33,893 nt of DNA from positions 1 to 33,893 of the forward strand of contig JAQVVD010000015.1 of assembly GCA_028699155.1 (NCBI GenBank), in the 5' to 3' direction. Positions 903 to 33,653 of this stretch are shown here, one piece after another. The position numbers were made by a program, and so were the translations under genes. The first letter of the stretch is position 1. Each line of letters starts with the position of its first letter. This DNA is from Candidatus Peribacteraceae bacterium (GTDB lineage: Bacteria > Patescibacteriota > Gracilibacteria > Peribacterales > Peribacteraceae). The notes below the pieces were generated by a model. It made no database searches. It was given only the letters and a program-made list of their open reading frames with translations, and was not told where the DNA came from.

Positions 903-1007
903 GCAGCTCTGCAAGTTCGCATCCTGCGTTTCTGCTTGCGTTCGCTGTGCGAACGTTCTTCAATGAGGCACTGCGAAGGAAGATTCGATTCCGTAGACTC
1001 TGTTCCC

Positions 1008-1919
1008 ATGCGGTCGCTTTCCTACAAGGGCATTACCTGGCATGACGATCCCGATCCGACCAAGAAAGATTTGGTTCGGCTGCAGAAGAAGTACGGGTTC
1101 CACGAGCTCGATATTCAGGATTGTCTGAGCGAACATGAACGTCCCAAGGTCGAGGAGTACGAGAAATACCTGTTCATCGTCTTCCACATTCCGTATCTCA
1201 GCCGCACCTCCGGGCGCATCCTGAAGGAGGAGGTGAATATCTTCATCGGTCAGGAGTTCATCGTGACGTTGCATGAGGGGAAAATTCCCATCCTGGATTT
1301 CCTCTGGAAGGAGCTTCGGGATTCCCGGGTCAAGCGTATGGAGTACCTGGAGCATGGGACGGGATTCTTCCTGTATCAGCTCATGCGCCATTTCTTCGAG
1401 GGCATCTTCCCTCTGGTCGATACCATGACCAAGCAGCTGCGCCGCATGGAAGATGAGCTGTTTGAGAGCGGGGAGGAAGTGGATCTGCTCAAGGACATCA
1501 TGACGCTCAAGCGCAACATCATCACGATGCGCAGCATTCTCCTGCCGCAACGTACCCTGATTGCGACGCTGGAACATAAGAACAAGCGGTTTGCCTCCGC
1601 GGATCTCACGCTCTACTTCGATGACATCCTCGATGCGATCGAACGCCAGTGGTCGCTCCTGGATACGGCGAAAGAAATGATCGATGCCCTGCAGGAGACG
1701 CATGAATCCTGGCTCAGCCACAAGACCAACGAAGTCATCCGCGTGCTCACGATCTTCTCTGTGACGATGCTGCCGCTCACGTTCATTGCAGGTCTGTACG
1801 GCATGAATGTCGCACTGCCCTTCGATCATCATCCGTATGCCTTCTTCGGGATTGTCGTTCTCCTCCTCCTTCTGACTACCGGCATGATCGGGTTCTTCGT
1901 CCGGAAACGGTGGTTGTAG
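1008..1919 (+). CDS. corA: CorA-family Mg2+/divalent cation transporter
   Basis: C-terminal TM pair with YGMN motif (FIAGLYGMNVALPF); acidic N-terminal domain; TAGACT 8 nt upstream of ATG 1008. Confidence 0.93.
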   Translation: MRSLSYKGITWHDDPDPTKKDLVRLQKKYGFHELDIQDCLSEHERPKVEEYEKYLFIVFHIPYLSRTSGRILKEEVNIFIGQEFIVTLHEGKIPILDFLWKELRDSRVKRMEYLEHGTGFFLYQLMRHFFEGIFPLVDTMTKQLRRMEDELFESGEEVDLLKDIMTLKRNIITMRSILLPQRTLIATLEHKNKRFASADLTLYFDDILDAIERQWSLLDTAKEMIDALQETHESWLSHKTNEVIRVLTIFSVTMLPLTFIAGLYGMNVALPFDHHPYAFFGIVVLLLLLTTGMIGFFVRKRWL

Positions 1920-1983
1920 GTTCCTGAGGTCGCAGCGGCTTCTCTCTCCGTATTATTGACAGAAGCGCAGTTCAGGGAATAGC

Positions 1984-2922
1984 ATGCTTCACTTTCTTAT
2001 GCCTCTCAAACACGGTCACGAAACACGGCTTATTTTCCTGCTTGGGGTTGTTTTCATTGCGACGGGTATTATGGTGTCGCTCCTCCCGCCGCTGCCATCC
2101 GGTTTGGGTCCCTGGACCGTTCTCTTCCTTCTCTCCGTCCTCTACTCGGTTCTCCTGTATCCAACGTTCAGGCGCAACCGTGCGGATAATGCCTTTCGGA
2201 AGTTACACTGGTTCCCCGCACTCATGCTGCTGTTCTGGCTGTTCCTGCAGGGTGCTATGCTCCTGTTTGACGGGGTCGCTGCCGTTTCCCGGATTTTTGC
2301 CTGGGGGTGGTCACTCCCTGCTGTGACGGTAGGGTTCTTTCTCCTGTTCGTTTTCTGTCTGCAGGTGATACGCCAGCGTGCGCGCCGCATTCTGCTCCTC
2401 GCGCTCTTGTTCGTGCCGTACGCCGTCATGGGATTCCTGGCAGAGCAGCCGCAGTTTACCGTGAACCAGCGTCTGGCAGCGCTGCTGTGGGACCATGCGA
2501 TCTGGAGCGTTGGATCCGGTCAGAGCGGCGCCAATCTGGTTGCTCAGAACGGTTCCCAATCCTCCGCTGCACTCAATCTGGATCCTTCTTCCGATCCTGG
2601 TGAAGAACGCTGGCGCGAGGCATTGCGCGCGTTCCAGCGTCGCATGCAGGGCACAGTATCTTTCGGCAGCGTGGAAACAGGAGCGACTGCTGGCGGCTCG
2701 CAGAGTGCAGCTGTTTCTGTCGGCGAACAGGCGGTGCCACAGGTGCCTGCGTTCCCACCCAGCCTGCAGCGCGGCGGCACGGGCGCACATCTGCGCGAAG
2801 TTGCGTCCAAGCCAAACGGTTTGCCAGAGTCCGGGTTCGGGTTCGGTGCCTTTGCGCTCACGCTTGTCGGCGGCTACTGCGCGACGCTCCATGCGCGGGC
2901 AAAACGGAGAAGCGGCAATTGA
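1984..2922 (+). CDS. Polytopic membrane protein of unknown function with low-complexity linker and C-terminal TM (start may be 1999)
   Basis: Long ORF with N-terminal TM helices; TTGACA 1956-1961 and TAGCAT 1980-1985 upstream favour the ATG at 1999. Confidence 0.65.
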   Translation: MLHFLMPLKHGHETRLIFLLGVVFIATGIMVSLLPPLPSGLGPWTVLFLLSVLYSVLLYPTFRRNRADNAFRKLHWFPALMLLFWLFLQGAMLLFDGVAAVSRIFAWGWSLPAVTVGFFLLFVFCLQVIRQRARRILLLALLFVPYAVMGFLAEQPQFTVNQRLAALLWDHAIWSVGSGQSGANLVAQNGSQSSAALNLDPSSDPGEERWREALRAFQRRMQGTVSFGSVETGATAGGSQSAAVSVGEQAVPQVPAFPPSLQRGGTGAHLREVASKPNGLPESGFGFGAFALTLVGGYCATLHARAKRRSGN

Positions 2923-3010
2923 AAATTGAAAATTGAAAATGGAAAATGGAAAACGTACCGGATGGGTTGCCCCATGTGTTCATTTTCCATTTTCAATTTT
3001 CCATTATCCA
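2917..3010. repeat. Intergenic hairpin element of iterated GAAAATT/GAAAATG units
   Basis: Left arm aattgaaaattgaaaattgaaaatggaaaatggaaaa and right arm cattttccattttcaattttccattatcca are complementary; inner ATGGG/CCCAT. Confidence 0.8.
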
Positions 3011-3025
3011 TTAGGATGTTCCTTG

Positions 3026-4291
3026 ATGAGTACCATTCAAAAACTCCACGCTCGCCAGATTCTCGATTCCCGCGGGAATCCCACTATTGAGGTGGACTGC
3101 ACGCTCGATGATGGCTCGTTCGGCCGGGCAGCGGTTCCCTCCGGTGCTTCTACCGGATCACACGAGGCGCTCGAACTGCGCGATGGTGACAAGAAGCTCT
3201 ACGGGGGGGCCTCTGTGCTCAAGGCGGTTGCCAATGTGAATGGCGCCATAGCCTCCGCGCTGGTTGCGCAGGACATCGCCGATCAGCGGGGCATCGATGC
3301 CATGCTGGTGGAGCTGGATGGCACTCCCAACAAGTCGAAGTTTGGCGCGAATGCGATCCTCGGCGTTTCCATGGCTGTGTGCCGCGCCCGCGCAGGAGCG
3401 GAGCGCAGGCCTCTCTACCGCTCGCTCGCAGACCAATTCGGCGCCGGCGATCCGACGTTGCTGCCTGTGCCGCACATGAATGTCATCAATGGCGGCAAGC
3501 ATGCGGATAGCGGGCTCTCGTTCCAGGAGTGCATGATCGTGCCCTGCGGATTTTCGCGTTTCTCCGATGCGCTTCGCGCCGGAGCCGAGACGTTCCATTC
3601 GCTCAAGAAAATTCTGAAGAATGACGGGCACATTACCGCAGTGGGTGATGAGGGGGGATTCGCTCCACGCGTGAAGAATGCCACGGAGGCATTCGAGTAC
3701 CTGGCGCGCGCCATAGAGGAGGCGGGGTACGGTGCGAACATACGGATTGCCATCGATGCGGCGGCATCCGAATTCTGCAAGGATGGCGTCTATCATGTGG
3801 ATGGCAGGCAGCTCTCATCTTCCCAGCTTACGGACTACTACGCAGAACTCATCGATCGCTACCCCTTCGTGAGCATCGAGGACAGCCACAGCGAAGATGA
3901 CTGGGAGGGATTCTCCGGCATGACTGCCGCTCTCGGCGGCAAGGTGCAGCTCGTGGGCGATGATCTACTCGTGACCAATGTGGAGCGCATTCAGAAGGGG
4001 ATTGAAATGAAAGCCGTGAATTCCGTTCTGATTAAGTTAAACCAGATCGGAACGGTGAGCGAGACCGTGGATGCCATCGAGCTCGCGCAGCAGAGCGGAT
4101 GGACTGCGGTCGTGAGCCACCGCAGCGGCGAAACGGAAGATACCTTCATCGCGCATCTGGCTGTTGCGATGGAGACGGGACAAATCAAAACGGGTTCGGC
4201 TTCCCGCACCGATCGCGTGTGCAAATACAACCAGCTCCTCCGGATCGAGGAGCAGCTGGGGAAGAGTGCGCGGTACCAGTCGCCGTTCTAA
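3026..4291 (+). CDS. eno: Enolase (phosphopyruvate hydratase)
   Basis: [72 protein letters not shown]. Confidence 0.98.
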
Positions 4292-4447
4292 GCTTTCCTC
4301 TTCAGCCACCAGCTTTTCAGCGGTGGGAGGCTTACCTCCCATGCTTTATCCTTTTCCACGCGCTTGTTGCGCTCATGGAGTGCCTGAATATTTGCTTCGA
4401 GATTTTGCATGGTTGTTGCAGGCTTGCATTGTATACTCCCGCCGTGT

Positions 4448-4524
4448 CGGGGTGTAGTTCAGTTGGCTAGAACGCATGCATGGGGTGCATGAGGTCGCTG
4501 GTTCGAGTCCAGTCACCCCGACCA
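4448..4524 (+). tRNA. tRNA-Pro (anticodon GGG), 3' CCA encoded
   Basis: Acceptor CGGGGTG/CACCCCG, anticodon stem CATGC/GCATG with loop ATGGGGT, GGTTCGAGTCC T-arm, ACCA end. Confidence 0.93.
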
Positions 4525-4528
4525 GCTT

Positions 4529-4561
4529 CGTGAGAGACAAACCTACGGTTTTTCTCTCACG
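4529..4561 (+). terminator. Hairpin downstream of tRNA-Pro, putative terminator
   Basis: GTGAGAGA-C-AAACC TAC GGTTT-T-TCTCTCAC; 8 bp plus 5 bp with one mismatch; T-run inside the 3' arm. Confidence 0.5.
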
Positions 4562-4751
4562 GACTCTCATTTCCCTCAGAGGTGTCGCTCCAGCGCGGGA
4601 AACCCGCGCTTCGCGGTCATTTTCATGTATCTTGTGCGATGCATGGACGAAGCGAATGCGGATCCGAAGGAAGTCCAGCTTTTGAAAAGTCATTCCTATT
4701 GCCAAATCCTGCCGGATTTGGTTTCATGGTCTCTTTTCTATTCTCCAAGTA

Positions 4752-4780
4752 TTGATTTTTAATAGAAATTATGTCATAAT
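4752..4780 (+). promoter_or_regulatory. Putative sigma70-type promoter for the DHH phosphoesterase gene
   Basis: TTGATT 4752-4757, 17-nt spacer, CATAAT 4775-4780; ATG at 4795. Confidence 0.5.
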
Positions 4781-4794
4781 AATACGTTACATCC

Positions 4795-6174
4795 ATGAGT
4801 CTCTCCTCGTCAGAACTGGCGGCAGCATCCAAAGCAGTGCAGGAGCACCAGCGCATCCTGGTGATTCCGCATGCGAATGTCGATCCGGACGGCTTGAGCA
4901 GCGCACTCGCGTGTTACGAAGTCTTCCGTGCCCTCGGCAAGGATGTCACAGTCGTGTGCCCCGATACGCTTCCGGAATCACTCAATTTTCTCCCCGGGTT
5001 CGAGAAGCTCTCCCGATCGATGGAGGCGCAGGAGAACTTCGTCATCACCATTAATCTGGAGGATGGGATGGAGGTGGATAAACTGCGTTACACGGTGGAG
5101 GACAAGCGCGTGAATATCATTGTCGTGCCGAAGAGCGGGCGCATCCACAGGGATCAGATCACCCTCTCTGAGGGCGATGCGCCGTACGATTTGATCGTCG
5201 TGGTGGATACCGCCGATCTTCCGCTCCTCGGATCGCTCTACACGGAGCATATTGACGTCCTCTCCTCGGTGCCGATCCTGAATATAGACCACCATATCAG
5301 CAATACGAAGTTCGGGCAGTTGCAGCTCATTGATCCGACTGCTGCGAGCGCAACGGAGGTGCTCTACCACTGGTTCCTGCAGGATCCTGCGCTCAGGAAG
5401 ACGCTCACGGCGGATACCGCGACGCTCCTGCTCACCGGGCTCATCACCGATACGCGCAGTTTCCAGAATCCCAATACTACTCCACGCTCGCTGGAGGTGG
5501 CTGCAGAGTTGCTGGAGCTTGGCGCGCGCCAGCAGGAGATCATCAAGAACATTTACAAGACCAAGCCGCTCTCCACGCTGCGCATCTGGGGGCGCGCGCT
5601 CAACCGGATTCAGATCGATACCTCCGGGGGAATTGTCTGGTCCACGGTTTCCCGCGAAGACCTTGCGGAAATGGGGGCAGGCAGCAAAGAGACGCACGGG
5701 CTCCTCGACGAGCTCATCTCCACCATTCCCGATGCCGATGTGCACGTGCTCTTCACCGAGCTGGAGGAGGGGGAGGGAGGGCTCAAGGCGAGCATGCGCT
5801 CCTCGCCCGCCATCAATGTGAGCAAGCTCGCTGCGGAAACCTACGGAGGAGGCGGCCACGCGCGCGCCGCCGGGTTCCGCATCAAGCGGTTTTCCAACTT
5901 CGATCTGCAGGTGCTCGAGTGCATCCAGAAGCTCCGGGATGGCATTGCGGCGCAGCGCGAGACCGCGCAGGCGCCGCGCCCTGTGCCGCCTGCTTCGCAG
6001 GCGAAAGCGCCGCAGGAGCCGAAAGAGGAATCTGCTCCCGATTCTCCTCTTCCCTCTGCGAAGCCAAAAACGCGCAGGAAGAAGGAGCTCGATGTCGTCG
6101 GGGATGTCGCTCCCCGCAGTATGGAGGGCGGCGATTCCGGCGATATCATGCAGGAGCTGACATCCGGCGCGTAA
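4795..6174 (+). CDS. DHH/DHHA1-family phosphoesterase (NrnA-like)
   Basis: ILNIDHHISNTKFG (DHH motif) and YGGGGHARAAGFRIK (DHHA1); sits upstream of infB. Confidence 0.88.
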   Translation: MSLSSSELAAASKAVQEHQRILVIPHANVDPDGLSSALACYEVFRALGKDVTVVCPDTLPESLNFLPGFEKLSRSMEAQENFVITINLEDGMEVDKLRYTVEDKRVNIIVVPKSGRIHRDQITLSEGDAPYDLIVVVDTADLPLLGSLYTEHIDVLSSVPILNIDHHISNTKFGQLQLIDPTAASATEVLYHWFLQDPALRKTLTADTATLLLTGLITDTRSFQNPNTTPRSLEVAAELLELGARQQEIIKNIYKTKPLSTLRIWGRALNRIQIDTSGGIVWSTVSREDLAEMGAGSKETHGLLDELISTIPDADVHVLFTELEEGEGGLKASMRSSPAINVSKLAAETYGGGGHARAAGFRIKRFSNFDLQVLECIQKLRDGIAAQRETAQAPRPVPPASQAKAPQEPKEESAPDSPLPSAKPKTRRKKELDVVGDVAPRSMEGGDSGDIMQELTSGA

Positions 6175-6238
6175 GAGAACTCCGGGGCTTTCGCTTGTGG
6201 TCAATCTCTCCTCTGTTAGACTGGCGTACGGCTTTTCG

Positions 6239-8509: not shown

Positions 8510-8510
8510 C

Positions 8511-9755: not shown

Positions 9756-9773
9756 GGTACGCGTTTGTTCTGT

Positions 9774-11573
9774 TTACGTGTTCCTCCTCTCCGCATCTAT
9801 CTCATCTGCCTTGCGCAGGATGACGTCAATGTGCGTGTTCCCTACTTTTCCATCCTGATCCATTGCTGCCCGGACTGCGCTGTTTTGGGAGTGGATCACG
9901 TCGCGCATGCGTTCGGGGCTATTCCTCATTTCTACCGAGAGTTCCCGCAGCGCACTTGTCACGTCCCTGCCTCCCCTCATTCCCTCTGCGATCTTTTCCA
10001 GGATGCGTGTTTGCCTCGTTGCAATCGCATCTGCTTCCGGGCTGCCTCCTCCGCGCAGGTTCTCGCTCATATTCTGGAAACTCAGCTTCCTGTTGCGGAT
10101 CGCGATGTTCGGGTTCCTCAGGAATCCTTCCGGCAGCGGGCTTGCGCTCATGATGGATTCGTACTGTCTCGTGCCGCCCTGCGTCTCTACCGGTATGAAC
10201 GGAAGCGCCAACGGCACCTTGAGCGCAAATTTACCCCAGTTCTGTCCTACGCTCTGAATGGCGCCTGCAGCACGGGCGTAGATGCTGCCCATCTTGCTGA
10301 TTGCGGCGAAGACGCCCACCCACATCACGATGACGGCCACGAAGCTCCAGAGCAGTTGCCACAGGTTCCTGATGCTGCTAATGAGCATTCCCTGGTCATT
10401 GCAGAGGTACGTCCCGTACGGACCGTTTTGCGGACATGCGATTCCGCTCACGCTATTGAGCATGATGAATCCGACTGCGAGGGGGATCGCAATAGCTGCA
10501 GGCAGGAACGCAGCTTTCACGAAGTGTTTGAAGATGCCCATGGTATCCGCCTCACCCATTTTGTCTCCCATGACGAAGCCGACGAACATGAAGGGCATGA
10601 ACGCGACTGTGAGCCAGATAATCGGGATTCGTATGAGGAATACCACTGCCATTGCAACGAGGGGCAGCAGTGCTGCGACTGTGTAGAAGAGGATGAACAT
10701 GAACTGTACGATAAACGTGCCAAGTTGCTCCAGGCTTGCCCACGTGCCGTCCGCAGGTCCCGGCGCACTCAGCACTTTCCCTGCCTGCACGATGCGTACG
10801 TGGTTGACGTAGAGTCCGTGCAGCATGGCGAGTCCCGTATTGAATTCTTCGTCGTACGGCGCAAGCCTGATGCAGACGAGGTTGCTGATTTTCACGTAGT
10901 TGGGATTGTTGCCTGCCTCTGCGATGTTCACGCACTCTGCTGCGAGTCTATTATCTTCCGCATCGCTGCGCCTTGCCGTTGGGAAGAGCCATGTTTCTGC
11001 AATGTACTGACAATCTGTGCTGTTGCCGTTGGCATCTTCTGTCCTGCACTGTGTTCCGATGGCCTGCGGCAGGGAGTAGATCGTTGCAGCGAGCACGTGT
11101 GCGGTATCCAGAATGACGCGTGGGAAGAACCACGAGAAGTTCACGAGGATGACCGCAAGGATGAATTTGGCTACGTGCGTCTTCATGAATTCGCCGCCCT
11201 GGGTAGGAACGATCACGGCGTAGAGCCCGACGAATACGAGCATGAATGCCAGAATGACATTCGTGAGGTTCCGTGAAAGTTGCCAGATGCTCAGAAGGGC
11301 GCCGGTTCCTTGCGTGCCTCCATTGACCGTGAAGATGAATTCAGGATCCAGGAGCGCTGAACACACATTAATTGTTGCGTAGATGAGGAACATTGCGAAG
11401 TCGAAGAAGATCGCTGACTTCTTGAGGAACTGCGTGAGATCCAGATCACCGGAGCCTGCTGTTACACCTTGCGCCTGGGCAAATTCAGTCATCACGCTGT
11501 TGTCCCCCAGGATGTACCAGAGGAGAAAGAATCCGCACAGAGCACCGAAGAGGAGTTTTCTGTTTGAAGGCAT
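9774..11573 (-). CDS. Polytopic membrane protein resembling VirB6/TrbL (type IV secretion-like)
   Basis: N-terminal signal/TM, many TM helices, large Cys-containing loop, soluble C-terminus; TATACT 7 nt upstream of ATG. Confidence 0.6.
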   Translation of the reverse strand: MPSNRKLLFGALCGFFLLWYILGDNSVMTEFAQAQGVTAGSGDLDLTQFLKKSAIFFDFAMFLIYATINVCSALLDPEFIFTVNGGTQGTGALLSIWQLSRNLTNVILAFMLVFVGLYAVIVPTQGGEFMKTHVAKFILAVILVNFSWFFPRVILDTAHVLAATIYSLPQAIGTQCRTEDANGNSTDCQYIAETWLFPTARRSDAEDNRLAAECVNIAEAGNNPNYVKISNLVCIRLAPYDEEFNTGLAMLHGLYVNHVRIVQAGKVLSAPGPADGTWASLEQLGTFIVQFMFILFYTVAALLPLVAMAVVFLIRIPIIWLTVAFMPFMFVGFVMGDKMGEADTMGIFKHFVKAAFLPAAIAIPLAVGFIMLNSVSGIACPQNGPYGTYLCNDQGMLISSIRNLWQLLWSFVAVIVMWVGVFAAISKMGSIYARAAGAIQSVGQNWGKFALKVPLALPFIPVETQGGTRQYESIMSASPLPEGFLRNPNIAIRNRKLSFQNMSENLRGGGSPEADAIATRQTRILEKIAEGMRGGRDVTSALRELSVEMRNSPERMRDVIHSQNSAVRAAMDQDGKVGNTHIDVILRKADEIDAERRNT

Positions 11574-11685
11574 TCAGAGAAGTATAGCAGAATTTCATAG
11601 GAGACGCAACTGTCCTCTTCGCTCCGTAAAGCGATACTGCTCTCGTTCAATAAATGTATTCCAGAACATAAAAACTGTTCAATTG

Positions 11686-13940: not shown

Positions 13941-13985
13941 AGAGGCGCTTCTGCTTATGGCATTTCTTTGCTATAATACAGAGGA

Positions 13986-15051: not shown

Positions 15052-18000
15052 ATGTCGCAGCCAGAACGATTCCGCCAGGGGAATGAGATCGCGCGCGAAA
15101 CGCAGCTTCCCTTCGCAGAGACGCTCAATACGCTGGAGAAAACAGTCGGTCCGTCCGTGCGGGGCATACCCGATGAGGTCACCGAGGATTGGCTCAAAGA
15201 GCAGCTGGCGGATATCGTGAAAGATCACCACATTGATACGTTCAATGAGCAGTATCTGTACAACGAACTTCTCTACCGTAGAGCTTCTCTGCAGCGTCAG
15301 AAGAATGTACGGGAAGCGCTGCAGCGCGGTGAGCAACCCAACGGCGAACTCCTGAAGGAACTCGTGGTGGCAAACCAAGCCGTCACGTACCACGAGTACT
15401 TCCGCAGCGGTGTGAATCATGTGCTCTCTGTGATGCGTCGCTACGAGACGATGCGCGGCACTATGCCGCACGTTCCCCCGTACCTGGTGAAAATGGAGGT
15501 GGAGACCAAACGGTACATCGAAGCGTTGCAGGGTGCTGTGCAGGAACGAGTTGCATTCTCCAACGTCATTCTCCTCGAGCACCATGTGGAGAAGGGATTT
15601 GGCAACGATGCTGTGCGTCTGCGCACGCTGCGTGACGGGTACATGGGTCAGTTGAGTGATGCGAGCAGGCAGGCGTTGGGCGGCGATCTGGAGCAGAAGC
15701 TCATTCGCGCCAATCAGCTCAACCAGAGGATTGTGGAACTCCTGAGCGGCAGGCACGGATTACAGGGAATCGAGGAAGGATACGTTCCCAAGCGCATGTA
15801 CCTGGAGTTGCTCAAATACCGGTATAAGCAGCTGCTCGATTCGCAGAAGCAGATTGCCGTGGATACGGATCTGGCGAGCTCAAAATCTGAGCTTGCGCAT
15901 TTTACGAGGAAGTTCGAGATGGCTCAGAAAGGCCAGGGGAAGTTCACCGAGGAGGATGTCGCTCGCAGCGAGGAACTCCGCAAGCGCATTCGGGACGTCA
16001 ACGGACAGTTTGCCCTGCTCGGAGAGCAGCGCCGTGCCGTCACGCAGGAAATCTTAGGGCTCACGGATGAATTGGCGGTCTATAACATCGAGCAAACGGA
16101 ACTGGCGGATATTCAGAACCAGCTTGGTAAGAAGTACAGTTTCGAAGGCGTTGCGGGCATCAGTCCGCTCAGTACTCCTCCAGAGGTGCGGGATGCCATT
16201 GCGAAGAACATGGAAACGCGGAAGCAGTTTCACCTCACGCAGATGGGTTCATTCCTGACTGTCGTAGAGGAAGATGTCTTGCATGTCGGGCTCAGGGAGC
16301 GCGTGGAAAAAAAATGGAACGAGGACGGCCGCGAAGCGCTCCGCCTTGTGACGCACCGCCTTGCCGGATTTTTTACCTTCGCCGTTCCGGAGGCATTCGG
16401 CATGAAGGAGGCGGCGAAAGATGCTCTCACGCAGCCATTGGATGAAGCGATGGGATGGCCATCGAATTGGGAAGATCTTTCCCCGGAAGAGCAGGAAAAA
16501 GCTCTTGAAGTTGTTCGTGAAAAGACGAGGAGCGTTCTTACGCTCATCGAGAATTTCGATACGTCCACGATACAGAACTTCCGCGAGACAGTCTCCGTCC
16601 TTCAGGGCATGCCGCCGATGTCTCAGTACGCACTCGAGGATGTGAAGTTCGACGAGAATGACCAACCGATCCTTCCGGAGGAACGCGTGACAACGGGAAA
16701 CAGGGATGCTCTGATCCGGAAGTATGGCGGCGGTACCGTGCACCTCATGCTCATCAGGCAGTTCCATGCTCATTGGGGCACGCAGCAGCCTCCGTCCGGT
16801 TTCTTCGGCGAATACGCAGAATTCCTCCACGGCGTTGATGCTGTCATTGATGTACACCTGGATGTCGGGCGCGCCCTCCATGTCCTGGGTGACCGGTACA
16901 TGGATCTCGCGAAACTGTGGATGCAGATTGCGCTCGTTGCACTGGGAGTCGGTATTCTCATCGGTGCCGGCGGCGTTCTCATCCTGAAGAAGGTTACAGG
17001 GAGGAGCGTTCGTGCAATTCTCAATGGCGCCGGGCGCGTACTGCCGAATCTGCCTCGCTATGCTCCGCGCATGGGCGCATCCGCGCCCTTCCTCTACAGG
17101 GCGTATCTCGACTACCAGAAGATCGGAGATATCGCCGAGAGCATTGAACGGCAGCGCATTCATCTCATTGCCGAACTCGAGGGGGCGGGCTTCGTCGCGG
17201 ATCCTCCGGGACAGGAGAGCACGTTCCGCTACAAGTCCGGCGGAACGGATATCAAGGTGAATGTCTCCGAGCTGAAGGATGCACTGGAGGGTCAGGAGAC
17301 GGCGCAGGGTGCGCGCGTTGTGGGGAGTCTCGCACAGGCTGCGCTGATTCTCCGGTTTGGTATTTCCAGGGCGGCGGTGCCACTCATGATCGCGGAGGTC
17401 GGCGTTGAAACCATCCGGTACGGATTGGATCAGGAATCAGACAAGAAGTTCCTGCTACGCGCGCCGGCATGGCTCATTGCCAAGATCAATTTGGAGCAAG
17501 CAACCGGCGAGACCGGGTATTCCATGCTCGCGAAGGCATCCGGAGAGATGATGACGGACAGTCCGTTCGGCGACGCGGAAGATTCGCAGGAGAATAGGGA
17601 GAAACGCGACATACGCGAGAAGATGCTCTTCCAGATCCTCATGGAGGAGTTGCGGCAGTTCCCCGAGCTGCGGCAGGAAATTCTGGGAGGTACTACGCAT
17701 CCGTTGCGTCTCGATCTCTTCTATAGGAACGGTTTTACAGATGTGTTCCTCCCTGTTTTCTACGCACGATTGTTCGAGCTGGTCGGGAAGGGGCGTCTTT
17801 CCTGGGAGGAGATCAGCAAGGGGCAGATTGACAGCGACTGGAATATTCCGCTCCCAACATCTCCGAAAATCACTTTGGTGGAACTCCGCCGCGCCATGCG
17901 CGAATCAGTCGTGTTCTCTATGCAGCATACGCGTGAAGAGCAGTATCTCTCTGCGCGTAAAGAGCTGGTTGCGCTGGACGCGCAGATCCAGAAGGAGTGG

Positions 18001-19773
18001 AGCCCGGAACTGCAGGCGAAGAGAGATTTTCTGGATTCCGTCGTACAGGAATTGGGGAAACAGGAGGTATTCGGGAAGAAATTGAGCGATGTTCCTGAGT
18101 GGGGAGATCGCGTACAGACCGGTACGACGCGTGCGAGTTCTGTCGCCAAGCTTCTCTTTGCAGGCGCGCCGAAGCATGATCACCGTGTGGAGGCGGATAC
18201 GGTTGCCGGTCTCCCGGAGGGATTCAATTTCGGTGATCGTACTTCTGTCTATTCCCGGTTCCTCGCGGATAATCCTGCGTTGCGTGCGCAACTCAACCAG
18301 GTACTCCCCAGGACAACCGCCGAACCTGAAGGGCGCGTATTTCCTTCCATTTGGTCGAAGGAAAGCTGGCAGATGCCGACGGGTTTCGATAGCAGGAATG
18401 CGCGTCTGGTTGATTCCCACTTCGTTGCGAACGGAGTTTCTGAAGCTGTGGGATTGCCGAAGATGCGCGATGAGATGTTCGGTACGACGGATAGCGTTGC
18501 GTTCGCTCTGAAGCGTGTCACGGAAGGTTCGATCAAGCTCTTTTCTGAGCATGCCGCACGTACGAAACAGCGTTCTTTGGAGCAGAATGCTTTCCTCGAA
18601 TCTTCGTTGTACAAGCGCGAGTCTCATACGCCCATCGTTCTTACTCGATACGAGGGGCGTCCGTATGTGACAGGGGACACGAAGCAATTTGCGGCCCTCA
18701 CGGAGATGTTGCGAGACCCTTCCTCGGGAGAAGAGGCATTCTCGTTCGAGAAGCTCGTTGCCGTGTGTTTCGAAGGGAAGACGCTGTCTAATGGGCACCA
18801 GATCGTTCTTGCGACGTACATGTTCGGTGATGTTGCATCTCGTTCTGAAGAGTTGCCGCGTTTCTACGTGATGCAGCGTGCCGCCGGCACTTCTGCGACT
18901 GCACGCTGGACTTCGCGCCTGCAGGGATTCAGCCACGCTTCGGGCGGGGCGAGTTTCCTCAGGCAGCCCGGTGCGAGTGCGATGCTGGATGCCGTACGAG
19001 TGCAGCTGGGTACGCGTGAGGAACAGCGACAGGAAGCGGCGGTGAAACAGGAAGCTGCGCAGCGCGAGCAGATGACTCAGTGGGAACGCGAGAAGCCTGT
19101 CCGTGACCAGAAACAGGCATTGCAGGAGGAGATCGTGCGTGCCGCTGAGCAGCGGGCGAGACAGGACGGGGTTGTCGGGTATGTCCCGGGGCGGTACGTT
19201 CGGGATGAAGAGAAACAGAGATTCTCTCTGAGTTTCGATACTTTTCAATCACGCTATGGCGATTGGATCCTGGAATTGCGGCCGCAAATTTACGTACAGC
19301 AGGAATTGCGTGCAGCCGATACTCCGGCGCCGAAACGCGGGTTCGCTTTTCACGCGCGGAACGAGAAGACCGGGCAATCGTATGCTTTCAATATGGATAT
19401 CGATGATCTCAGGGCTCCGAGTCGTGCTGTAACGGAACAGGATATCGCTATGGCGACCGCTCTGCTCACTGCTCCGCTCAATCTTGCGGGACATCCCCAG
19501 GAGAAGGATAAAAAATTCGTCGAGGCGGTTCGTCGGTATGAGTTACGGCGCCTGCTCGACATAGCGAAGTACAAGGGTTCACACAGTTGGAATGCCTCTG
19601 AGTTTCGTGACAATCTGGAACAGGAGCTCTGGCCGTACTATCGCGATGCGAAGAATAAGGATATTTTCCTCAATACGTTGCTGAATAACCTGACGACGTA
19701 CTCGCCGGTGACGGGCGGAGTGTTCAGCAGTACGTACGGTACGATTCTGAAGAACATGAAGCAGCAGTACTAG
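15052..19773 (+). CDS. Very large (1573 aa) unknown protein with internal TM segments and charged, probably helical regions
   Basis: Uninterrupted 4.7 kb ORF; TM LAKLWMQIALVALGVGILIGAGGVLIL; second hydrophobic stretch VVGSLAQAALILRFGISRAAVPLMIAEVG. Confidence 0.85.
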   Translation: MSQPERFRQGNEIARETQLPFAETLNTLEKTVGPSVRGIPDEVTEDWLKEQLADIVKDHHIDTFNEQYLYNELLYRRASLQRQKNVREALQRGEQPNGELLKELVVANQAVTYHEYFRSGVNHVLSVMRRYETMRGTMPHVPPYLVKMEVETKRYIEALQGAVQERVAFSNVILLEHHVEKGFGNDAVRLRTLRDGYMGQLSDASRQALGGDLEQKLIRANQLNQRIVELLSGRHGLQGIEEGYVPKRMYLELLKYRYKQLLDSQKQIAVDTDLASSKSELAHFTRKFEMAQKGQGKFTEEDVARSEELRKRIRDVNGQFALLGEQRRAVTQEILGLTDELAVYNIEQTELADIQNQLGKKYSFEGVAGISPLSTPPEVRDAIAKNMETRKQFHLTQMGSFLTVVEEDVLHVGLRERVEKKWNEDGREALRLVTHRLAGFFTFAVPEAFGMKEAAKDALTQPLDEAMGWPSNWEDLSPEEQEKALEVVREKTRSVLTLIENFDTSTIQNFRETVSVLQGMPPMSQYALEDVKFDENDQPILPEERVTTGNRDALIRKYGGGTVHLMLIRQFHAHWGTQQPPSGFFGEYAEFLHGVDAVIDVHLDVGRALHVLGDRYMDLAKLWMQIALVALGVGILIGAGGVLILKKVTGRSVRAILNGAGRVLPNLPRYAPRMGASAPFLYRAYLDYQKIGDIAESIERQRIHLIAELEGAGFVADPPGQESTFRYKSGGTDIKVNVSELKDALEGQETAQGARVVGSLAQAALILRFGISRAAVPLMIAEVGVETIRYGLDQESDKKFLLRAPAWLIAKINLEQATGETGYSMLAKASGEMMTDSPFGDAEDSQENREKRDIREKMLFQILMEELRQFPELRQEILGGTTHPLRLDLFYRNGFTDVFLPVFYARLFELVGKGRLSWEEISKGQIDSDWNIPLPTSPKITLVELRRAMRESVVFSMQHTREEQYLSARKELVALDAQIQKEWSPELQAKRDFLDSVVQELGKQEVFGKKLSDVPEWGDRVQTGTTRASSVAKLLFAGAPKHDHRVEADTVAGLPEGFNFGDRTSVYSRFLADNPALRAQLNQVLPRTTAEPEGRVFPSIWSKESWQMPTGFDSRNARLVDSHFVANGVSEAVGLPKMRDEMFGTTDSVAFALKRVTEGSIKLFSEHAARTKQRSLEQNAFLESSLYKRESHTPIVLTRYEGRPYVTGDTKQFAALTEMLRDPSSGEEAFSFEKLVAVCFEGKTLSNGHQIVLATYMFGDVASRSEELPRFYVMQRAAGTSATARWTSRLQGFSHASGGASFLRQPGASAMLDAVRVQLGTREEQRQEAAVKQEAAQREQMTQWEREKPVRDQKQALQEEIVRAAEQRARQDGVVGYVPGRYVRDEEKQRFSLSFDTFQSRYGDWILELRPQIYVQQELRAADTPAPKRGFAFHARNEKTGQSYAFNMDIDDLRAPSRAVTEQDIAMATALLTAPLNLAGHPQEKDKKFVEAVRRYELRRLLDIAKYKGSHSWNASEFRDNLEQELWPYYRDAKNKDIFLNTLLNNLTTYSPVTGGVFSSTYGTILKNMKQQY

Positions 19774-19833
19774 GGAAGAATCTCTTCCTGATTTCATTCG
19801 CGGAAACGCGCGCTTCTCCATATCATAGGAGGC

Positions 19834-22896: not shown

Positions 22897-22970
22897 ATGG
22901 TAAATGGAAAATGAAAAATAGAAAGTTAAAAATGCACCACGAAAACATTCCCCTCCGATTTTTCATTTAC
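22897..22970. repeat. Second intergenic hairpin element (GAAAATG-type units)
   Basis: Left arm atggtaaatggaaaatgaaaaatagaaagttaaaaatg, right arm atttttcatttac; resembles the 2917-3010 element. Confidence 0.55.
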
Positions 22971-23776: not shown

Positions 23777-23806
23777 TGCACTGCAAGTCCATCAATTCTC
23801 AAGCAT

Positions 23807-23831: not shown

Positions 23832-23864
23832 GAGAACTACTGTTTATCATTCCGCTAATTTTTC

Positions 23865-23909
23865 TTTGGGGGACTAGGGAACCTTGTTCGGTTCCCTAAG
23901 CCCCCCAAA
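23865..23909. repeat. Strong composite hairpin TTTGGGGGACTAGGGAACC-TTGTTC-GGTTCCCTAAGCCCCCCAAA
   Basis: 9-bp perfect inner stem TAGGGAACC/GGTTCCCTA plus outer G5/C5 and TTT/AAA pairing. Confidence 0.7.
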
Positions 23910-24000
23910 CCCCCCTTACCCTCCTAACTGTACCCGTAGTTATTGGCATAATATTTCGGGCATTTTCAATGAGGAAACAAAGTTGCAAAAAAGGAACTTG

Positions 24001-24010
24001 CCGCAACCAA
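24001..24010 (+). repeat. att-like direct repeat, right copy
   Basis: CCGCAACCAA identical to the 3' end of tRNA-fMet at 23395-23404. Confidence 0.5.
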
Positions 24011-24011
24011 T

Positions 24012-24476: not shown

Positions 24477-24506
24477 CGGGCATAGGGTACTTGGGATGGA
24501 GGGGTT

Positions 24507-24605
24507 CGGGAATAGGGAATAGGGAGTAGAATACTAGGGATTAGGACTAGGTTATCAAATACAAAAAATATCCCTATTCCCCAGTATTCCAGTATTCTAT
24601 TCCCG
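24507..24605. repeat. Third intergenic hairpin element of GGGAATA / AGTATTC units
   Basis: Left arm cgggaatagggaatagggagtagaatactaggga; right arm tccctattccccagtattccagtattctattcccg. Confidence 0.75.
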
Positions 24606-27169: not shown

Positions 27170-27191
27170 AGTATTGTGGAGAGAAACAAAA

Positions 27192-27225
27192 CGGGTGAGC
27201 TCCTTCTGAGAGGAATACTCACCCG
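27192..27225 (-). terminator. Rho-independent-like terminator/attenuator between the two surface-protein genes
   Basis: Minus strand CGGGTGAG-N18-CTCACCCG followed by TTTTGTTTCTC. Confidence 0.6.
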
Positions 27226-27246
27226 CGTATGGTACCCGCTTTGAGG

Positions 27247-27852: not shown

Positions 27853-27878
27853 AGTACTGGTGGAAAATAATGGTTGCT

Positions 27879-27907
27879 ATTAAATCATTATATTTGATAT
27901 TTGTCAA
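27879..27907 (-). promoter_or_regulatory. Promoter for the DUF11-like gene
   Basis: Minus strand TTGACA (27902-27907), 17-nt spacer, TTTAAT (27879-27884). Confidence 0.6.
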
Positions 27908-27911
27908 TATC

Positions 27912-30386
27912 CTACCAATGCTTTTCCAGAGCGGTTTTCCAGGTATTCAGCAGTTCGGAGAGACTGAGTTCCAGCAGGGGATGTTCCCCGCGCATGACGC
28001 GGAGCATCGCTTCCTGCGTTGTGGCGCCGATCCGCAGCGCTGTCATGTTGTTCTCTGCTGCACAGGAGAGGAATGTTTGCTCTTTTTCTTCGGGAACCTC
28101 CAGCAGGAATCCACCCGTTTCGGAGAAGAGGAGCTGGTCCGTGCGCAGCGTGCTCCCGAGCGCATCCAGGTCTATGTCTGCGCCCAGATTCCTGCCGACT
28201 TTGCGCTGTGGGGCGAACATCTCAAACAGCGCCATGAGCAAGCCTCCTTCGCTGATGTCGTGGCAGGCGGCAACGAGATTCCGCCCGATGGCCTGGGTGA
28301 CGCAACGTATCTGGCAGGAAACTTCCCCGAAGTTCGGCTCAGGGACGTTCTCCCCCAGCAGCGCATCGCGCCCCGCCTGCGTGCGTTCCTCCAGCACCTG
28401 GTAGTAGAGCGACCCTCCGCACTCATCCCTGCGTTCACCGATCAGGTAGAGAGCGGATCCGGCGTTCTTCACCTGCATGGTCACCGCCCTGCGCGCATCC
28501 GCGAGTATGCCCGTGCAGCTCACGATGGCAGTCGGGTCAATGGCGCTGCCATCCGGTTTGCCGTTGTAGAGACTCACGTTGCCGGAAATAATGGGAACCG
28601 GCTCCCCGTCTATGAGTACTCCTTTCGATGCGTCCGCGATGCCGCCGGCGCCTTCTTCCAGCTGCCAGAGCTGCTGCGGAATTTCCGGATTGCCGTAGTT
28701 GAGGCAGTCCGTGAGCGCGCGGGGCAGGGCTCCCACGGCTGCCACGTTGCGCATGGCTTCCACCGCGGCATTCGCTCCCTGCCAGTAGGGGGAGATCCTG
28801 CCGTACCTTCCGTTGCCGTCCGCTGCGATCGCGACGCCCCGCCATCGTTCTTCCTCTGTCAGTTCCCATCCGGGGTGTGTTCCTTCCTGCACGTAGCTCT
28901 CCAGATCCTGCAGTGGCGCAATGACTGCGGCATCCGCTTCGCCCGGTTCGATGACGGAGTTTCCGATGACGTTCTTGTCGTAGTGCCGAAAAACCGGTTC
29001 CCTGCTCGCACCATTCGGGTGCGAGAGCAGCGCATGGAAGATTTCTGCGAGAGAGAATTCCTTCCCTCCCACTGTGACGATTGCTCCGTTGCAGGCGATC
29101 TTCGGCTCCTCGCCCGCGTACGCAAAGGCTTTGGTCGGGCGGGCGTACTGCAGTCCGCAGGTGATATCCAGCGCTTTCGCTTCACAGACAATCTGGCCTC
29201 TGTACGTTGCGCGGTAGATGTTGCTCTCCGTCACTTTGCCGATCAGGCTCGCCCGCGCGTTCTCCGCCACGCTCGGGAGTTCCCATATCTCGTTGTAGTG
29301 CCTGAGGATGTGCTCCGTGAGGTCCGGGTGGCACATCCAGCAGAGGCGTTCCTGCGTTTCGGCGCAGGCGATGACTTCTGCCGGCAGGCTGTCTATCGCA
29401 ACGTGGACGTTGTCCAAATTGATGTCTGCTCCGAGCCCCCTATCTGCCACCTGCTCCACGGATGCGCAGACGACGCCTCCCGCGCCGAGGTCCTTGAAGC
29501 TCACTTTATCCAGGTTCCCTTCTGCGGCGAGCCAGTCGAAGAGCGCGTAGGTGGAAGCGAGAATGTGGCGTTCCAGGAACGGGTTGGGTTCCTGCACGGC
29601 TCCGGTGTTCTGCTCGCGCTTCTCCTCCTCCATGCTCGCGCTGGCGAACGCCGCTCCTCCGAATCCGCTGCGGTCCGTCGGCTTGCCGACCAGGATGATG
29701 TCGTAGCCGACTTTACCGGCATCCTTCGGCACGTAGCTGTGAATCACCTCGTCTTCCCGCACGATGCCCAGCGCGATCGCATTCACGAGACAGTTGCTGT
29801 TGTAGGCCGCATCGAAGACAGTGTCTCCGCCCAGGTTCGGCACGCCGAGCGGGTTGCCGTACCCCCCGATGCCGCGCACGACTTCCTTCGCGACGGTGCG
29901 GGATTCTTCCGTCTGCAAATCTCCCAGCCGCAGCATATCCATGCAGCCCACCACGCGTGCTCCCATGCAGACCACGTCGCGCACCGTGCCGCCCACGCCG
30001 GTTGCCGCGCCCTCGTACGGGACGATCTGCGACGGGTGGTTGTGCGACTCATGCGTCACGACGAATCCCCACCGCTTCCCCCTGGGCGCATCCGTGATTG
30101 CGACGATGCCGCTGTCTTCCACCGGACCTAAGATGATATGTTTCCCTTTCGTGACGAATTTTTTCAGGAAGGGGCGCGATGATTTGTAGCTGCAGTGCTC
30201 GCTCCCCTGAATGCCCCAGATCACCGCTTCCACCACCGTCGGATCGCGCCCGAGCATCTGCGAAATCTTGCGCGCTTCCTCCACTGTGAGGCCGATCTGG
30301 TGTGCGGACAAGAGTGCCCGTATCTCCTGCTGGGTCGCAGTGGAGAAGGGGAGCGTCGGCACGGATGGTCTGGAGGCGTTTGGCAT
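27912..30386 (-). CDS. purL: Phosphoribosylformylglycinamidine synthase, PurL subunit
   Basis: SEHCSYKSSRPFLKKF, THESHNHPSQIVPYEGAATGVGGTVRDV, GGYGNPLGVPNLGGD, LSEGGLLMALFEM-type C-terminal region. Confidence 0.94.
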   Translation of the reverse strand: MPNASRPSVPTLPFSTATQQEIRALLSAHQIGLTVEEARKISQMLGRDPTVVEAVIWGIQGSEHCSYKSSRPFLKKFVTKGKHIILGPVEDSGIVAITDAPRGKRWGFVVTHESHNHPSQIVPYEGAATGVGGTVRDVVCMGARVVGCMDMLRLGDLQTEESRTVAKEVVRGIGGYGNPLGVPNLGGDTVFDAAYNSNCLVNAIALGIVREDEVIHSYVPKDAGKVGYDIILVGKPTDRSGFGGAAFASASMEEEKREQNTGAVQEPNPFLERHILASTYALFDWLAAEGNLDKVSFKDLGAGGVVCASVEQVADRGLGADINLDNVHVAIDSLPAEVIACAETQERLCWMCHPDLTEHILRHYNEIWELPSVAENARASLIGKVTESNIYRATYRGQIVCEAKALDITCGLQYARPTKAFAYAGEEPKIACNGAIVTVGGKEFSLAEIFHALLSHPNGASREPVFRHYDKNVIGNSVIEPGEADAAVIAPLQDLESYVQEGTHPGWELTEEERWRGVAIAADGNGRYGRISPYWQGANAAVEAMRNVAAVGALPRALTDCLNYGNPEIPQQLWQLEEGAGGIADASKGVLIDGEPVPIISGNVSLYNGKPDGSAIDPTAIVSCTGILADARRAVTMQVKNAGSALYLIGERRDECGGSLYYQVLEERTQAGRDALLGENVPEPNFGEVSCQIRCVTQAIGRNLVAACHDISEGGLLMALFEMFAPQRKVGRNLGADIDLDALGSTLRTDQLLFSETGGFLLEVPEEKEQTFLSCAAENNMTALRIGATTQEAMLRVMRGEHPLLELSLSELLNTWKTALEKHW

Positions 30387-30474
30387 CGGCTGCCGTGATT
30401 ATGCAGGAGCTCTCCTCAGAATGGAAAGAGGAAGTGCGTTTGTATTCTTTCCTTCTCTGCTACTCTCTGCTGCG

Positions 30475-31836
30475 ATGATCACGTTCCTCCGCAACCGTCT
30501 TTCCCAGCAGCGCCTCGTTGGAGGCGCGCTGGTACTCGCCGTAACGCAGCTCGGCGCGTCACTCGCCGGGCTGATCCGCGATCGCACGCTCGCGGGCACG
30601 TTCCCGGGGCTCAACGTGGTGGATGCGTACATCTCGTCATTCCGCTTGAGCGACCTCCTCTTCCAGATGTGCATCATGGCGGGGTTCTCTGTCGCGCTGG
30701 TGCCGCTGCTCGCGCAGTACCACGGGAAGAACGATACGGAAGCACTTGGCAGGCTCCTGAGCGGCGTGGTGGGTATGGCGGCGTACGTGTTCGGCCTGGT
30801 TGCGCTCGTTGCCGCCATCTTCTTCCCCGCCATCGCTCCGTACCTCGTGCAGTTCGAGGGCGAGTCGCTCGCGCTCTTCATCACCTTCGGCCGCCTCGCG
30901 CTGCTCGCGAACTTCCTGATGGTCTTCGGGAATGCGTTCGGCCAGTACCTGATCACCACACAGCGCTACTGGATCTACGGCATCACTCCGATTCTCTACA
31001 CCGTCGGCACCATCTTCGGCACGCTCTTCCTCTCCACGCCGGAGACGTTCGGCGCGCTCGGCCCTATGGTGGGGACGCTCGGCGGTTCCGCTCTGTACGT
31101 CCTGCTGCGCTTCTGGGCAGTGCTCCACTCCGGCTGCAGGATGCGTCCCGCAATCTGGCATCCGGAACTTCCGGAATTCTTTCGCCTCATGCTGCCCCGC
31201 ATGGTCGCGCTCGGCGTGCTGCAGCTGCAGCTCCTGCTCTTTGATACCGTGGCTTCCGGCCTTCCCGCGGGTTCCGTGACCATCAATGCGTACGCGCGCA
31301 ACTTCCAGTCGGTTGCGGTCGGGGTTGCGGGCATCGCGCTGGCACAGTCCGCTTTCTCGCTCCTAAGCCAGGCAGCGGCAAAGAAGGAAGTCTTCCGTTT
31401 CTGGATCTACCTGCGCAAGGGGATGATCGTGCTCCTGCTCGTCACCGTCCCCTGCGCATTCCTGCTCACCTTCCTCGCGCCTGTTGCCGCGTTTCTCGTG
31501 CATCTGACGCATCGGCTGGATGTGTTCCGCGTCTGCCTCGCGCTCTACGCTGTCAGTATTCCGTTCGAGAGCATGAATCACCTGCTCCTTCGCGCGTTCT
31601 ACTCGCTTAGGAATACATTCAAACCGGCGGTCTTCAGTGTGCTCAACGGGGCTGCGGCCATTGCGCTCTCCTGGTTTCTGGCACCCCAGATAGGAGTCTT
31701 CGCACTGGCGATCGGGTTTGCCGCGGGACAGCTCATCGAGCTCCTGGGGCTCGCGATCCTCCTGCCGCGCCAGATTGAACTCTCCATGGAGCGGGGGAAT
31801 CCTCTGAGCAACTTGTATAAAAAAATTGTACACTAG
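30475..31836 (+). CDS. murJ: Lipid II flippase MurJ (MviN family)
   Basis: LGASLAGLIRDRTLAGTFPGLNVVDAYISSFRLSDLLFQMCIMAGFSVALVPLLAQY; MOP-type polytopic membrane protein; ATG 30475 preferred (TACTCT 8 nt upstream). Confidence 0.9.
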   Translation: MITFLRNRLSQQRLVGGALVLAVTQLGASLAGLIRDRTLAGTFPGLNVVDAYISSFRLSDLLFQMCIMAGFSVALVPLLAQYHGKNDTEALGRLLSGVVGMAAYVFGLVALVAAIFFPAIAPYLVQFEGESLALFITFGRLALLANFLMVFGNAFGQYLITTQRYWIYGITPILYTVGTIFGTLFLSTPETFGALGPMVGTLGGSALYVLLRFWAVLHSGCRMRPAIWHPELPEFFRLMLPRMVALGVLQLQLLLFDTVASGLPAGSVTINAYARNFQSVAVGVAGIALAQSAFSLLSQAAAKKEVFRFWIYLRKGMIVLLLVTVPCAFLLTFLAPVAAFLVHLTHRLDVFRVCLALYAVSIPFESMNHLLLRAFYSLRNTFKPAVFSVLNGAAAIALSWFLAPQIGVFALAIGFAAGQLIELLGLAILLPRQIELSMERGNPLSNLYKKIVH

Positions 31837-31881
31837 TTTTCGCTTTTACAAGAGAATAAATATGTATAAAAATTGTGTACG
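31813..31881. repeat. Two imperfect copies of TGTATAAAAA(AA)ATTGT-GTAC upstream of the 31990 gene
   Basis: ttgtataaaaaaattgtacac (31813-31833) and atgtataaaaattgtgtacg (31862-31881). Confidence 0.5.
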
Positions 31882-31952
31882 ATATTGTGCTCTCGTTCTG
31901 CGGGTACGTGCTGATGCCGTGTTGTAGCGCGGGATTGGATCAGTGTCTGCCA

Positions 31953-31982
31953 TAGACATTTATGTCATATTTATGGTATAAT
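31953..31982 (+). promoter_or_regulatory. Promoter giving a predicted leaderless transcript of the 31990 gene
   Basis: TAGACA 31953-31958, 18-nt spacer, TATAAT 31977-31982, ATG 7 nt later. Confidence 0.65.
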
Positions 31983-31989
31983 ATTACTA

Positions 31990-32799
31990 ATGAGAGTCGA
32001 ATTAACACCCATCCAGTACGCAGGAGAAGAAGAGCTGCTTGGTGTTGTGGACGTAGAAGGACACAACGTTGTTCTGTATACCAGAAAACTCATTGCGAAC
32101 GACCCCGAGACGCGCACTGTCAAACCGACGTTGGAGATACGTGCGGTTGTGCCATCCATTACGCAAGTAGGGCACAGCGATTTGCGGTATGACCTCGTGA
32201 CGAAGGTTGATGCATTCCTCTCTGACCGCCTGAAGAAGGATTACATCGTGTATGGTTCGACTTCCGGATTGGTCTGCGTGCCCAAAACCGTAGAACATCT
32301 GGAGCAGGATGAGCGACACGTCGATACCGCCGGCATGCACCCCGCCTTCTTCGAGCATAGCCGTATGTGCAGACAGGATATGCTCGCTTGCCTGGATCCC
32401 ATGGTGGCTAAGATACAGGCCGTATTACAGGAAACGCGTTCCGATCTGGAACTTCTGTCCTCGGAACCGCCACCGCCCGAAGCTGCGGTGCGCGCGGCGC
32501 GCGATCTCCTCCACTCCGTCGTCTGGGCTCCGGAACCTGCCAGGCAACAGGCGGCCGACGATGGTCGCGTGCTGCACATTCCTGCATCGTACGAAGGCAT
32601 GTGTTACACCTACAAATCCTCTCTGCCTGCAGGCATAGATTGGCATGCACTGGAGCACGGCATGCGCACCGTTTTTGCGGGGGAAAAATTGGATATGGAC
32701 GTCGTACACCGTCGCGTTTCCCGCAGGGGCACAGATGAGAGTTGCCTCTTTCTCATTCGCGCTACTCCCGAGAGCCATCAGAAATTGACTGGATCGTGA
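31990..32799 (+). CDS. Unknown 269-aa protein
   Basis: ORF with good upstream promoter; no family recognised. Confidence 0.75.
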   Translation: MRVELTPIQYAGEEELLGVVDVEGHNVVLYTRKLIANDPETRTVKPTLEIRAVVPSITQVGHSDLRYDLVTKVDAFLSDRLKKDYIVYGSTSGLVCVPKTVEHLEQDERHVDTAGMHPAFFEHSRMCRQDMLACLDPMVAKIQAVLQETRSDLELLSSEPPPPEAAVRAARDLLHSVVWAPEPARQQAADDGRVLHIPASYEGMCYTYKSSLPAGIDWHALEHGMRTVFAGEKLDMDVVHRRVSRRGTDESCLFLIRATPESHQKLTGS

Positions 32800-33052
32800 A
32801 TCCCCGGAATCCCGCGGGTTCTGCGTCGTGCGTGCGCACCTCCGCCACTTTCGCAGCCGCTGGTCCTGTGTGCAGCCACTCCTCCAGTTGTGAGAGTTGC
32901 TCCTCCGTTCCTTCTGCGTGGACTTCTACCGAACCGTCGTCGCAGTTGCGCACCCAGCCGGTTACGCCCAGTTCCCGCGCTCTCTCCTCCGTCTCTGAGC
33001 GAAAGAAGACGCCCTGGACGCGACCGAATACCCTGAAGAGCCTGGCTGCCAT
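32762..33052 (-). CDS. acyP: Acylphosphatase
   Basis: RLFRVFGRVQGVFFRSETEERARELGVTGWVRNCDDGSVEVHAEGTEEQLSQLEEWL; TAGAAT 7 nt upstream of ATG 33052. Confidence 0.93.
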   Translation of the reverse strand: MAARLFRVFGRVQGVFFRSETEERARELGVTGWVRNCDDGSVEVHAEGTEEQLSQLEEWLHTGPAAAKVAEVRTHDAEPAGFRGFTIQSISDGSRE

Positions 33053-33127
33053 GCAGTCAATTCTAGATGCAAAATCCATCATGCGGAACAGCCTGATGCC
33101 CGGAGCGTACAGTTTTTGTGCAGGATT

Positions 33128-33373
33128 TCAGGGGAGCGTATGGTAGATCGATTTCCAAAATGCATAGTCCTCATCAGTCATTGTGCCTTGCTTCCTCTTC
33201 TCAAGAATCTTCGCCGTGTCTCTTTCGATCATTCCCTGCATTCTTTTACGTGTTTCTTCAATTCTACCGAGTACTTCCAGATAATCGAGGTGTCCATCAA
33301 TTTCACCACATTCATCAAAACCTGCATCTGCCACTTCTGGCGGCGGCACGTTGTTTTCATTGGGGATTGCCAT
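33128..33373 (-). CDS. Small unknown protein (about 81 aa)
   Basis: MAIPNENNVPPPEVADAGFDECGEIDGHLDYLEVLGRIEETRKRMQGM...; TAGAAT 8 nt upstream of ATG. Confidence 0.55.
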   Translation of the reverse strand: MAIPNENNVPPPEVADAGFDECGEIDGHLDYLEVLGRIEETRKRMQGMIERDTAKILEKRKQGTMTDEDYAFWKSIYHTLP

Positions 33374-33416
33374 AGCGTGCAATTCTATGCTTTTGGATGA
33401 TCAATCCAAGGAAGAA

Positions 33417-33626
33417 CTAGGGATTTTTGGGTTGATCCAATACAGGGGTTTCACTCGTATCGAGTGTACCCGTTGATTGAACCGCCTGATGGGTGTCATC
33501 CTGTATGCGCACGAAGTTTCGCTGCCGGGCAGCTGCTGCCAAATGCGGATTGACCCGATGCGTTGCTGCGCCAGTGCGGCAGAGTTGAAGGTACTCCCGT
33601 GCTGCCTGCGTGATATCTTCTTTCAT
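33417..33626 (-). CDS. Small unknown protein (69 aa)
   Basis: ORF with perfect TATAAT 8 nt upstream of ATG. Confidence 0.5.
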   Translation of the reverse strand: MKEDITQAAREYLQLCRTGAATHRVNPHLAAAARQRNFVRIQDDTHQAVQSTGTLDTSETPVLDQPKNP

Positions 33627-33653
33627 AGGAGGGGATTATAGCCGAAGGATATT

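Follow-up and report, generated by a model that had tools for sequence, protein, structure and literature searches.

Predicted leaderless promoters and missing Shine-Dalgarno signals in the patescibacterial family Peribacteraceae

In the Deinococcus-Thermus group, leaderless expression has been linked to a "-10 motif adjacent to ORF" (open reading frame), as set out in the sections of PMC12340547 on this motif, which cite Zheng 2011 and de Groot 2014. There, a TANNNT hexamer located 6-7 bp before about one third of the ORFs acts as a sigma factor -10 element and yields leaderless mRNA, and an added -35 element enhances leaderless expression (PMC12340547). We find a similar arrangement in Candidatus Peribacteraceae bacterium (Patescibacteriota; Gracilibacteria), in which a contig of 33,893 nucleotides (assembly GCA_028699155.1, contig JAQVVD010000015.1; analyzed at its full length and referred to here as the window) recurrently carries TANNNT hexamers just before start codons. 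Deinococcus differs in having a clear GGAG ribosome-binding site (RBS) motif, whereas here no Shine-Dalgarno (SD) sequence is detectable and the anti-SD of the 16S rRNA is altered.

Other described systems share some of these features. Leaderless genomes as predicted by GeneMarkS-2, for example Mycobacterium, comprise 21.6% of bacterial species and have up to 40% leaderless transcripts, according to the summary given in PMC9581028. Like the genome studied here, Mycobacterium carries a promoter -10 directly before the starts of a large fraction of its genes. Mycobacteria have an intact anti-SD and use SD sequences for leadered genes, whereas the anti-SD is altered here. Bacteroidota, like the genome studied here, show no SD usage. 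In that phylum, initiation uses A/T-rich sites and bS21 takes part in sequestering the anti-SD; here, in contrast, bS21 is undetected in the genome, the anti-SD is not intact, and predicted leaderless promoters would carry initiation. The anti-SD is also changed in many Flavobacteriia, as stated in the relevant part of PMC10783764. Within the same lineage, Table 4 of that article lists Ca. Peribacter riflensis among the SD-scarce organisms without CCUCC (class iv), with 7% SD. Our genome shares this CCUCC loss and SD scarcity, but the portion of PMC10783764 concerned with that organism names no replacement for the SD, whereas here we describe a candidate replacement consisting of leaderless promoters and of SD-free starts within operons, together with the variants of the 16S tail across the family and a covarying hairpin. 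CCUCC loss in one Peribacter is therefore already known, while we found no report of a leaderless replacement, nor any relevant report of leaderless transcription in Patescibacteria, in a literature search that lay outside most subscription journals and preprints.

Our analysis indicates that the hexamers are very probably -10 elements of sigma70-type promoters, from which transcription would begin at, or about 0-4 nt from, the start codon to give leaderless mRNAs, and that SD recognition is very probably unused in the family. In the window, TANNNT occurs at a spacer of 6-10 nt in 15 of 28 starts (P about 6e-11 against the genome's own 6.9% background). The initial annotation listed 14 of these sites, all with exact hexamers, spacers and coordinates, and overlooked one (4783-4788). 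It gave the chance rate as 1 in 64 per position, which is correct for even composition but does not consider that each start allows about five positions; per position, we measured rates of 0.0142 upstream of genes and 0.0061 over the whole window.

For the genome-scale analysis, we used a 643 kb sample (about 55%) of the assembly, which comprises 1.18 Mb in 44 contigs, the window being contig 23. Genes were called with our own caller, which scores coding potential and start-codon type and ignores the upstream sequence, thereby avoiding circularity; its coverage is about 70%. TANNNT is found 6-10 nt before 134 of 455 starts (about 30%), compared with 32.5 +/- 5.6 (about 7%) in 200 dinucleotide shuffles, the highest of which reached 51 (p about 1e-47). 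The genome-wide shuffle-controlled test that the initial annotation had proposed was thus passed, although the peak is somewhat wider than the spacer of 6-8 nt that it had described. Among the 64 patterns of the form X1X2NNNX6, TANNNT is the most enriched (4.26-fold), followed by TANNNC (2.08-fold), and other AT-only patterns show no enrichment (at most 1.2-fold). The -10 peak is significant in every group that we sampled inside and outside the class and is weaker in AT-rich genomes, where the background is high. Processed in the same way, an E. coli stretch gave a TANNNT -10 at 7% of starts versus a 5% background and an SD at 59% versus 3%. A Deinococcus MP1 plasmid stretch, intended as a positive control, gave a weak signal (10% versus 5%, 30 genes) and was not used.

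The surroundings of the hexamers have the features of promoters. When sites are aligned on the hexamer, a -35 TTG lies 16-17 nt upstream in 8 + 15 sites, compared with about 2 at other distances; these 23 sites compare with an expectation of about 3.7 (P about 1e-11). As in extended -10 elements, 46% of sites have a G two bases before the hexamer, and positions inside the hexamer show a preference for A/C. Sites with a spacer of 6 nt have a pyrimidine at -1 (C in 28 of 40) and a purine at +1. The genome also encodes sigma70-family proteins with region 4. These observations fit -10 elements of sigma70-type promoters with a predicted transcription start at the start codon. Since the usual distance from the -10 to +1 is 6-7 nt and the spacers are 6-10 nt, leaders of about 0-4 nt are predicted.

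The site is retained in relatives from about 30 genera, in which starts were fixed by homology: TANNNT occurs 6-10 nt before lepA in 17 of 30, murC in 24 of 30 and eno in 18 of 29 (57-80%), and the DNA around the conserved hexamers shows no visible conservation. This comparison also bears on lepA of the window, whose AGGAGG had been taken for an exceptional SD. That assignment does not hold: the AGGAGG lies 1 nt from the start, is found in this genome only, and has no CCUCC to pair with in the 16S tail; before other lepA genes, the few SD-like matches are AGGA inside TAGGAT. As a separate observation, class relatives outside Peribacteria carry a TTAA(C) motif about 9-12 nt before starts; TTAA precedes eno in 10 of 14 of these relatives versus 3 of 29 in Peribacteria, and the AT-rich genome G034 has 26 TTAA matches at spacers 9-12 over 61 starts. 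This motif does not resemble a -10 element and is possibly a non-SD signal.

Of greater weight than the leaderless starts is the loss of the SD system, including the 16S anti-SD, which could not be seen from the window. SD tetramers at a spacer of 4-10 nt occur before 21 of 443 starts (5%) in our genome sample, against a background of 35.8 (8%), and before 7 of 316 in family relatives, against 21.5; GGAA and GGAAG, which would pair with the altered tail, are not enriched either. G is depleted at -25..-1 (0.19 versus 0.24). A GGAG exactly 2 nt before the start occurs 7 times in the sample (about 2 expected), too close to act as an SD. The 16S gene has the tail GGAACACTTCCTTA, with CACUUCC and no CCUCC, and its end reads TGGAACACTTCCTTACCAGGGAA where the canonical sequence is TGGATCACCTCCTT. 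Canonical CACCUCC is absent from the tail in all 14 family genomes read, which have CACTTCC (7), CATTTCC (2), CATCTCC (4) or CGCCTCC (1); the last (G069) keeps CCUCC, which the other 13 lack. We searched for bS21 (PF01165) and did not find it in this genome or in six of seven other sampled family members, although a divergent bS21 could be missed; S1-domain proteins are present.

The altered tail is part of a putative hairpin. Where the tail reads UUCC, the downstream spacer has the pairing GGGAA, and where it reads CUCC, the spacer has GGGAG. This covariation suggests that drift of the anti-SD has left a hairpin over the 16S 3' end intact; the finding carries moderate weight, as a single pair covaries and the independent lineages are few. 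Most tails across the phylum are predicted to form hairpins of this kind, which may serve 3'-end maturation or masking. Altered or lost anti-SD sequences also occur elsewhere in the class and phylum, in f18 g72 (GGAATATCTCTTTTATAGAG), G071 (GGACCACCTCTC), G006 (GGAATACCGCC), G197 (GGATCACTTCTTATC) and G156, whose altered tail (GGAACACTTAAACAAG...) lies within a long perfect hairpin. In many genomes of the class, the 16S gene matches the model in several separate pieces. The breaks fall around model positions 535-547 and 873-874, as would fit the insertions that rRNA genes of the candidate phyla radiation (CPR) are known to carry.

SD enrichment is lacking even in class relatives whose tail is canonical (4 of 171 versus a background of 9.8), in contrast to three genomes from outside the class (24 of 110 versus 6.2). 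The comparison points to an order in which SD use disappeared first and the anti-SD decayed later; with small samples of 16-64 genes per genome, we treat this as a lead.

Genes inside operons behave differently, as would be expected if the hexamers belong to promoters. TANNNT precedes 38% of divergent genes (background 9%) and 18.5% of genes in same-strand pairs less than 30 bp apart (background 5.6%), a drop of the kind that the initial annotation had suggested looking for. In the ribosomal protein operon (locus L168), where starts were set by homology to E. coli, the 15 genes after rplC have one TANNNT and no SD, and nine of them start within -4..+3 nt of the upstream ORF's stop. As these genes carry neither signal, leaderless initiation would be one of two SD-free modes, the second being probably stop-start coupling within operons. 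Tight gene pairs make up 14% here versus 22 of 43 in the E. coli stretch, a comparison from which nothing is concluded because the caller misses genes and ribosomal protein operons abound in the E. coli stretch.

Taken as a mechanism, genes with their own promoter would be translated mainly from 5'-terminal AUG or GTG codons, because SD recognition appears unused, given the lack of SD enrichment and the disappearance of CACCUCC from the 16S tail; operon-internal genes would probably rely on stop-start coupling or on SD-less leadered initiation. Several points weigh against this reading. About two thirds of the called starts have no consensus TANNNT at 6-10 nt; some of these are start-call errors or have weaker -10s, and some must be leadered. 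The net excess is about 26% of all starts and about 32% of divergent starts, four of the 14 starts in the initial annotation have no independent support, the 5' ends are predictions from sequence, and the 16S tails were read from genes. The earlier claim of widespread leaderless transcription stands for a subset of genes: predicted leaderless genes form a large minority overall and perhaps most of those that directly follow a promoter.

The most serious competing explanation, which we consider plausible but less than evenly probable, accepts leaderless genes as a real minority and makes SD-less leadered initiation, from G-poor, unstructured leaders and perhaps assisted by bS1, the main mode. 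The modest net excess, the ribosomal protein operon genes without either signal and the G depletion all point in its direction, while the homology-fixed lepA, murC and eno, at 57-80%, argue for a higher leaderless share. When the -10 was defined more loosely, a mixture model also gave a high leaderless fraction (0.65), but control windows gave 0.18-0.37, and we therefore do not use this value as an estimate. By comparison, it is improbable that the -10s are real and yet the dominant transcripts arise from promoters further upstream, giving leadered mRNAs: TANNNT counts at spacers 20-45 are near background, with no second peak, and the site keeps a fixed distance across about 30 genera while its flanks turn over. 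Still less credible is that TANNNT marks an AT-rich, unstructured translation signal and no promoter. The hexamer does overlap the position expected of a ribosome-binding site, and A/T-rich non-SD sites are known in Bacteroidota (FCB group, PMC9581028); however, the lack of enrichment of other AT-only patterns, the -35 and extended -10 at promoter spacing and the near disappearance of the signal in operon-internal genes speak for promoters. Chance, or a choice of starts that suited the hexamer, could draw on the four starts that the independent caller does not choose, but is refuted by the p of about 1e-47 obtained with motif-blind starts and by the persistence of the motif at homology-fixed ones. 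Returning to predicted leaderless initiation, we give roughly even chances to a broader version, in which the whole family lacks SD:anti-SD pairing and initiates at 5'-terminal or stop-start codons, the anti-SD is kept only as an arm of the 16S hairpin, and SD use was lost class-wide first.

Within the window, the upstream-blind caller agreed with ten of the 14 previously chosen starts. On the forward strand, these are preceded by predicted -10s at 994..999 (TAGACT, N8 to corA ATG 1008; CorA PF01544), 3012..3017 (TAGGAT, N8 to eno ATG 3026; TIGR01060), 13972..13977 (TATAAT, N8 to ATG 13986), 19821..19826 (TATCAT, N7 to lepA GTG 19834; TIGR01393; the AGGAGG lies in this spacer), 24593..24598 (TATTCT, N7 to murC ATG 24606; TIGR01082; the count of 24 in 30 includes this genome), 30461..30466 (TACTCT, N8 to murJ ATG 30475; counted from this start, residue 18 of the protein matches position 6 of the MurJ profile) and 31977..31982 (TATAAT, N7 to ATG 31990). 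On the reverse strand, they are 11581..11586 (TATACT, N7 to ATG 11573), 24484..24489 (TACCCT, N7 to ATG 24476) and 33060..33065 (TAGAAT, N7 to acylphosphatase ATG 33052; PF00708). For the polysaccharide pyruvyl transferase gene (PF04230; 12974..12979, forward, TATAGT, N7 to GTG 12987) the caller prefers another start, and for the gene at ATG 22890 (22897..22902, reverse, TACCAT, N6) it picks 22779. The small ORFs at ATG 33373 (33382..33387, reverse, TAGAAT, N8) and ATG 33626 (33635..33640, reverse, TATAAT, N8) were not called. The overlooked site at 4783..4788 (forward, TACGTT) lies N6 before ATG 4795 of a DHH/DHHA1 gene (PF01368).

Of the genes named earlier, eno, lepA and murC score above the NCBIfam cut-offs, and CorA, the csaB-like transferase and the acylphosphatase above those of Pfam. 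MurJ passes in Pfam but falls below the NCBIfam cut-off, and the DivIC/FtsB-like match (ATG 24476) is below cut-off. The "VirB6-like" protein (9774-11573, reverse, 599 aa) has no Pfam or NCBIfam match, and neither does a 1573-aa protein at 15052-19773 (forward). The enolase is at most 77% identical to Candidatus Peribacteria/Peribacterales enolases, and Rfam matches in the window are confined to two tRNAs.

Patescibacteria make up a large share of the diversity of bacteria, and SD-tuned tools are the usual means of calling their gene starts. If leaderless starts are common among them, many annotated starts and 5' regions would be wrong. A family that combines leaderless promoters with a decayed anti-SD and lacks the SD would offer a natural test of SD-free initiation, as well as of the order in which SD use and the anti-SD are lost.

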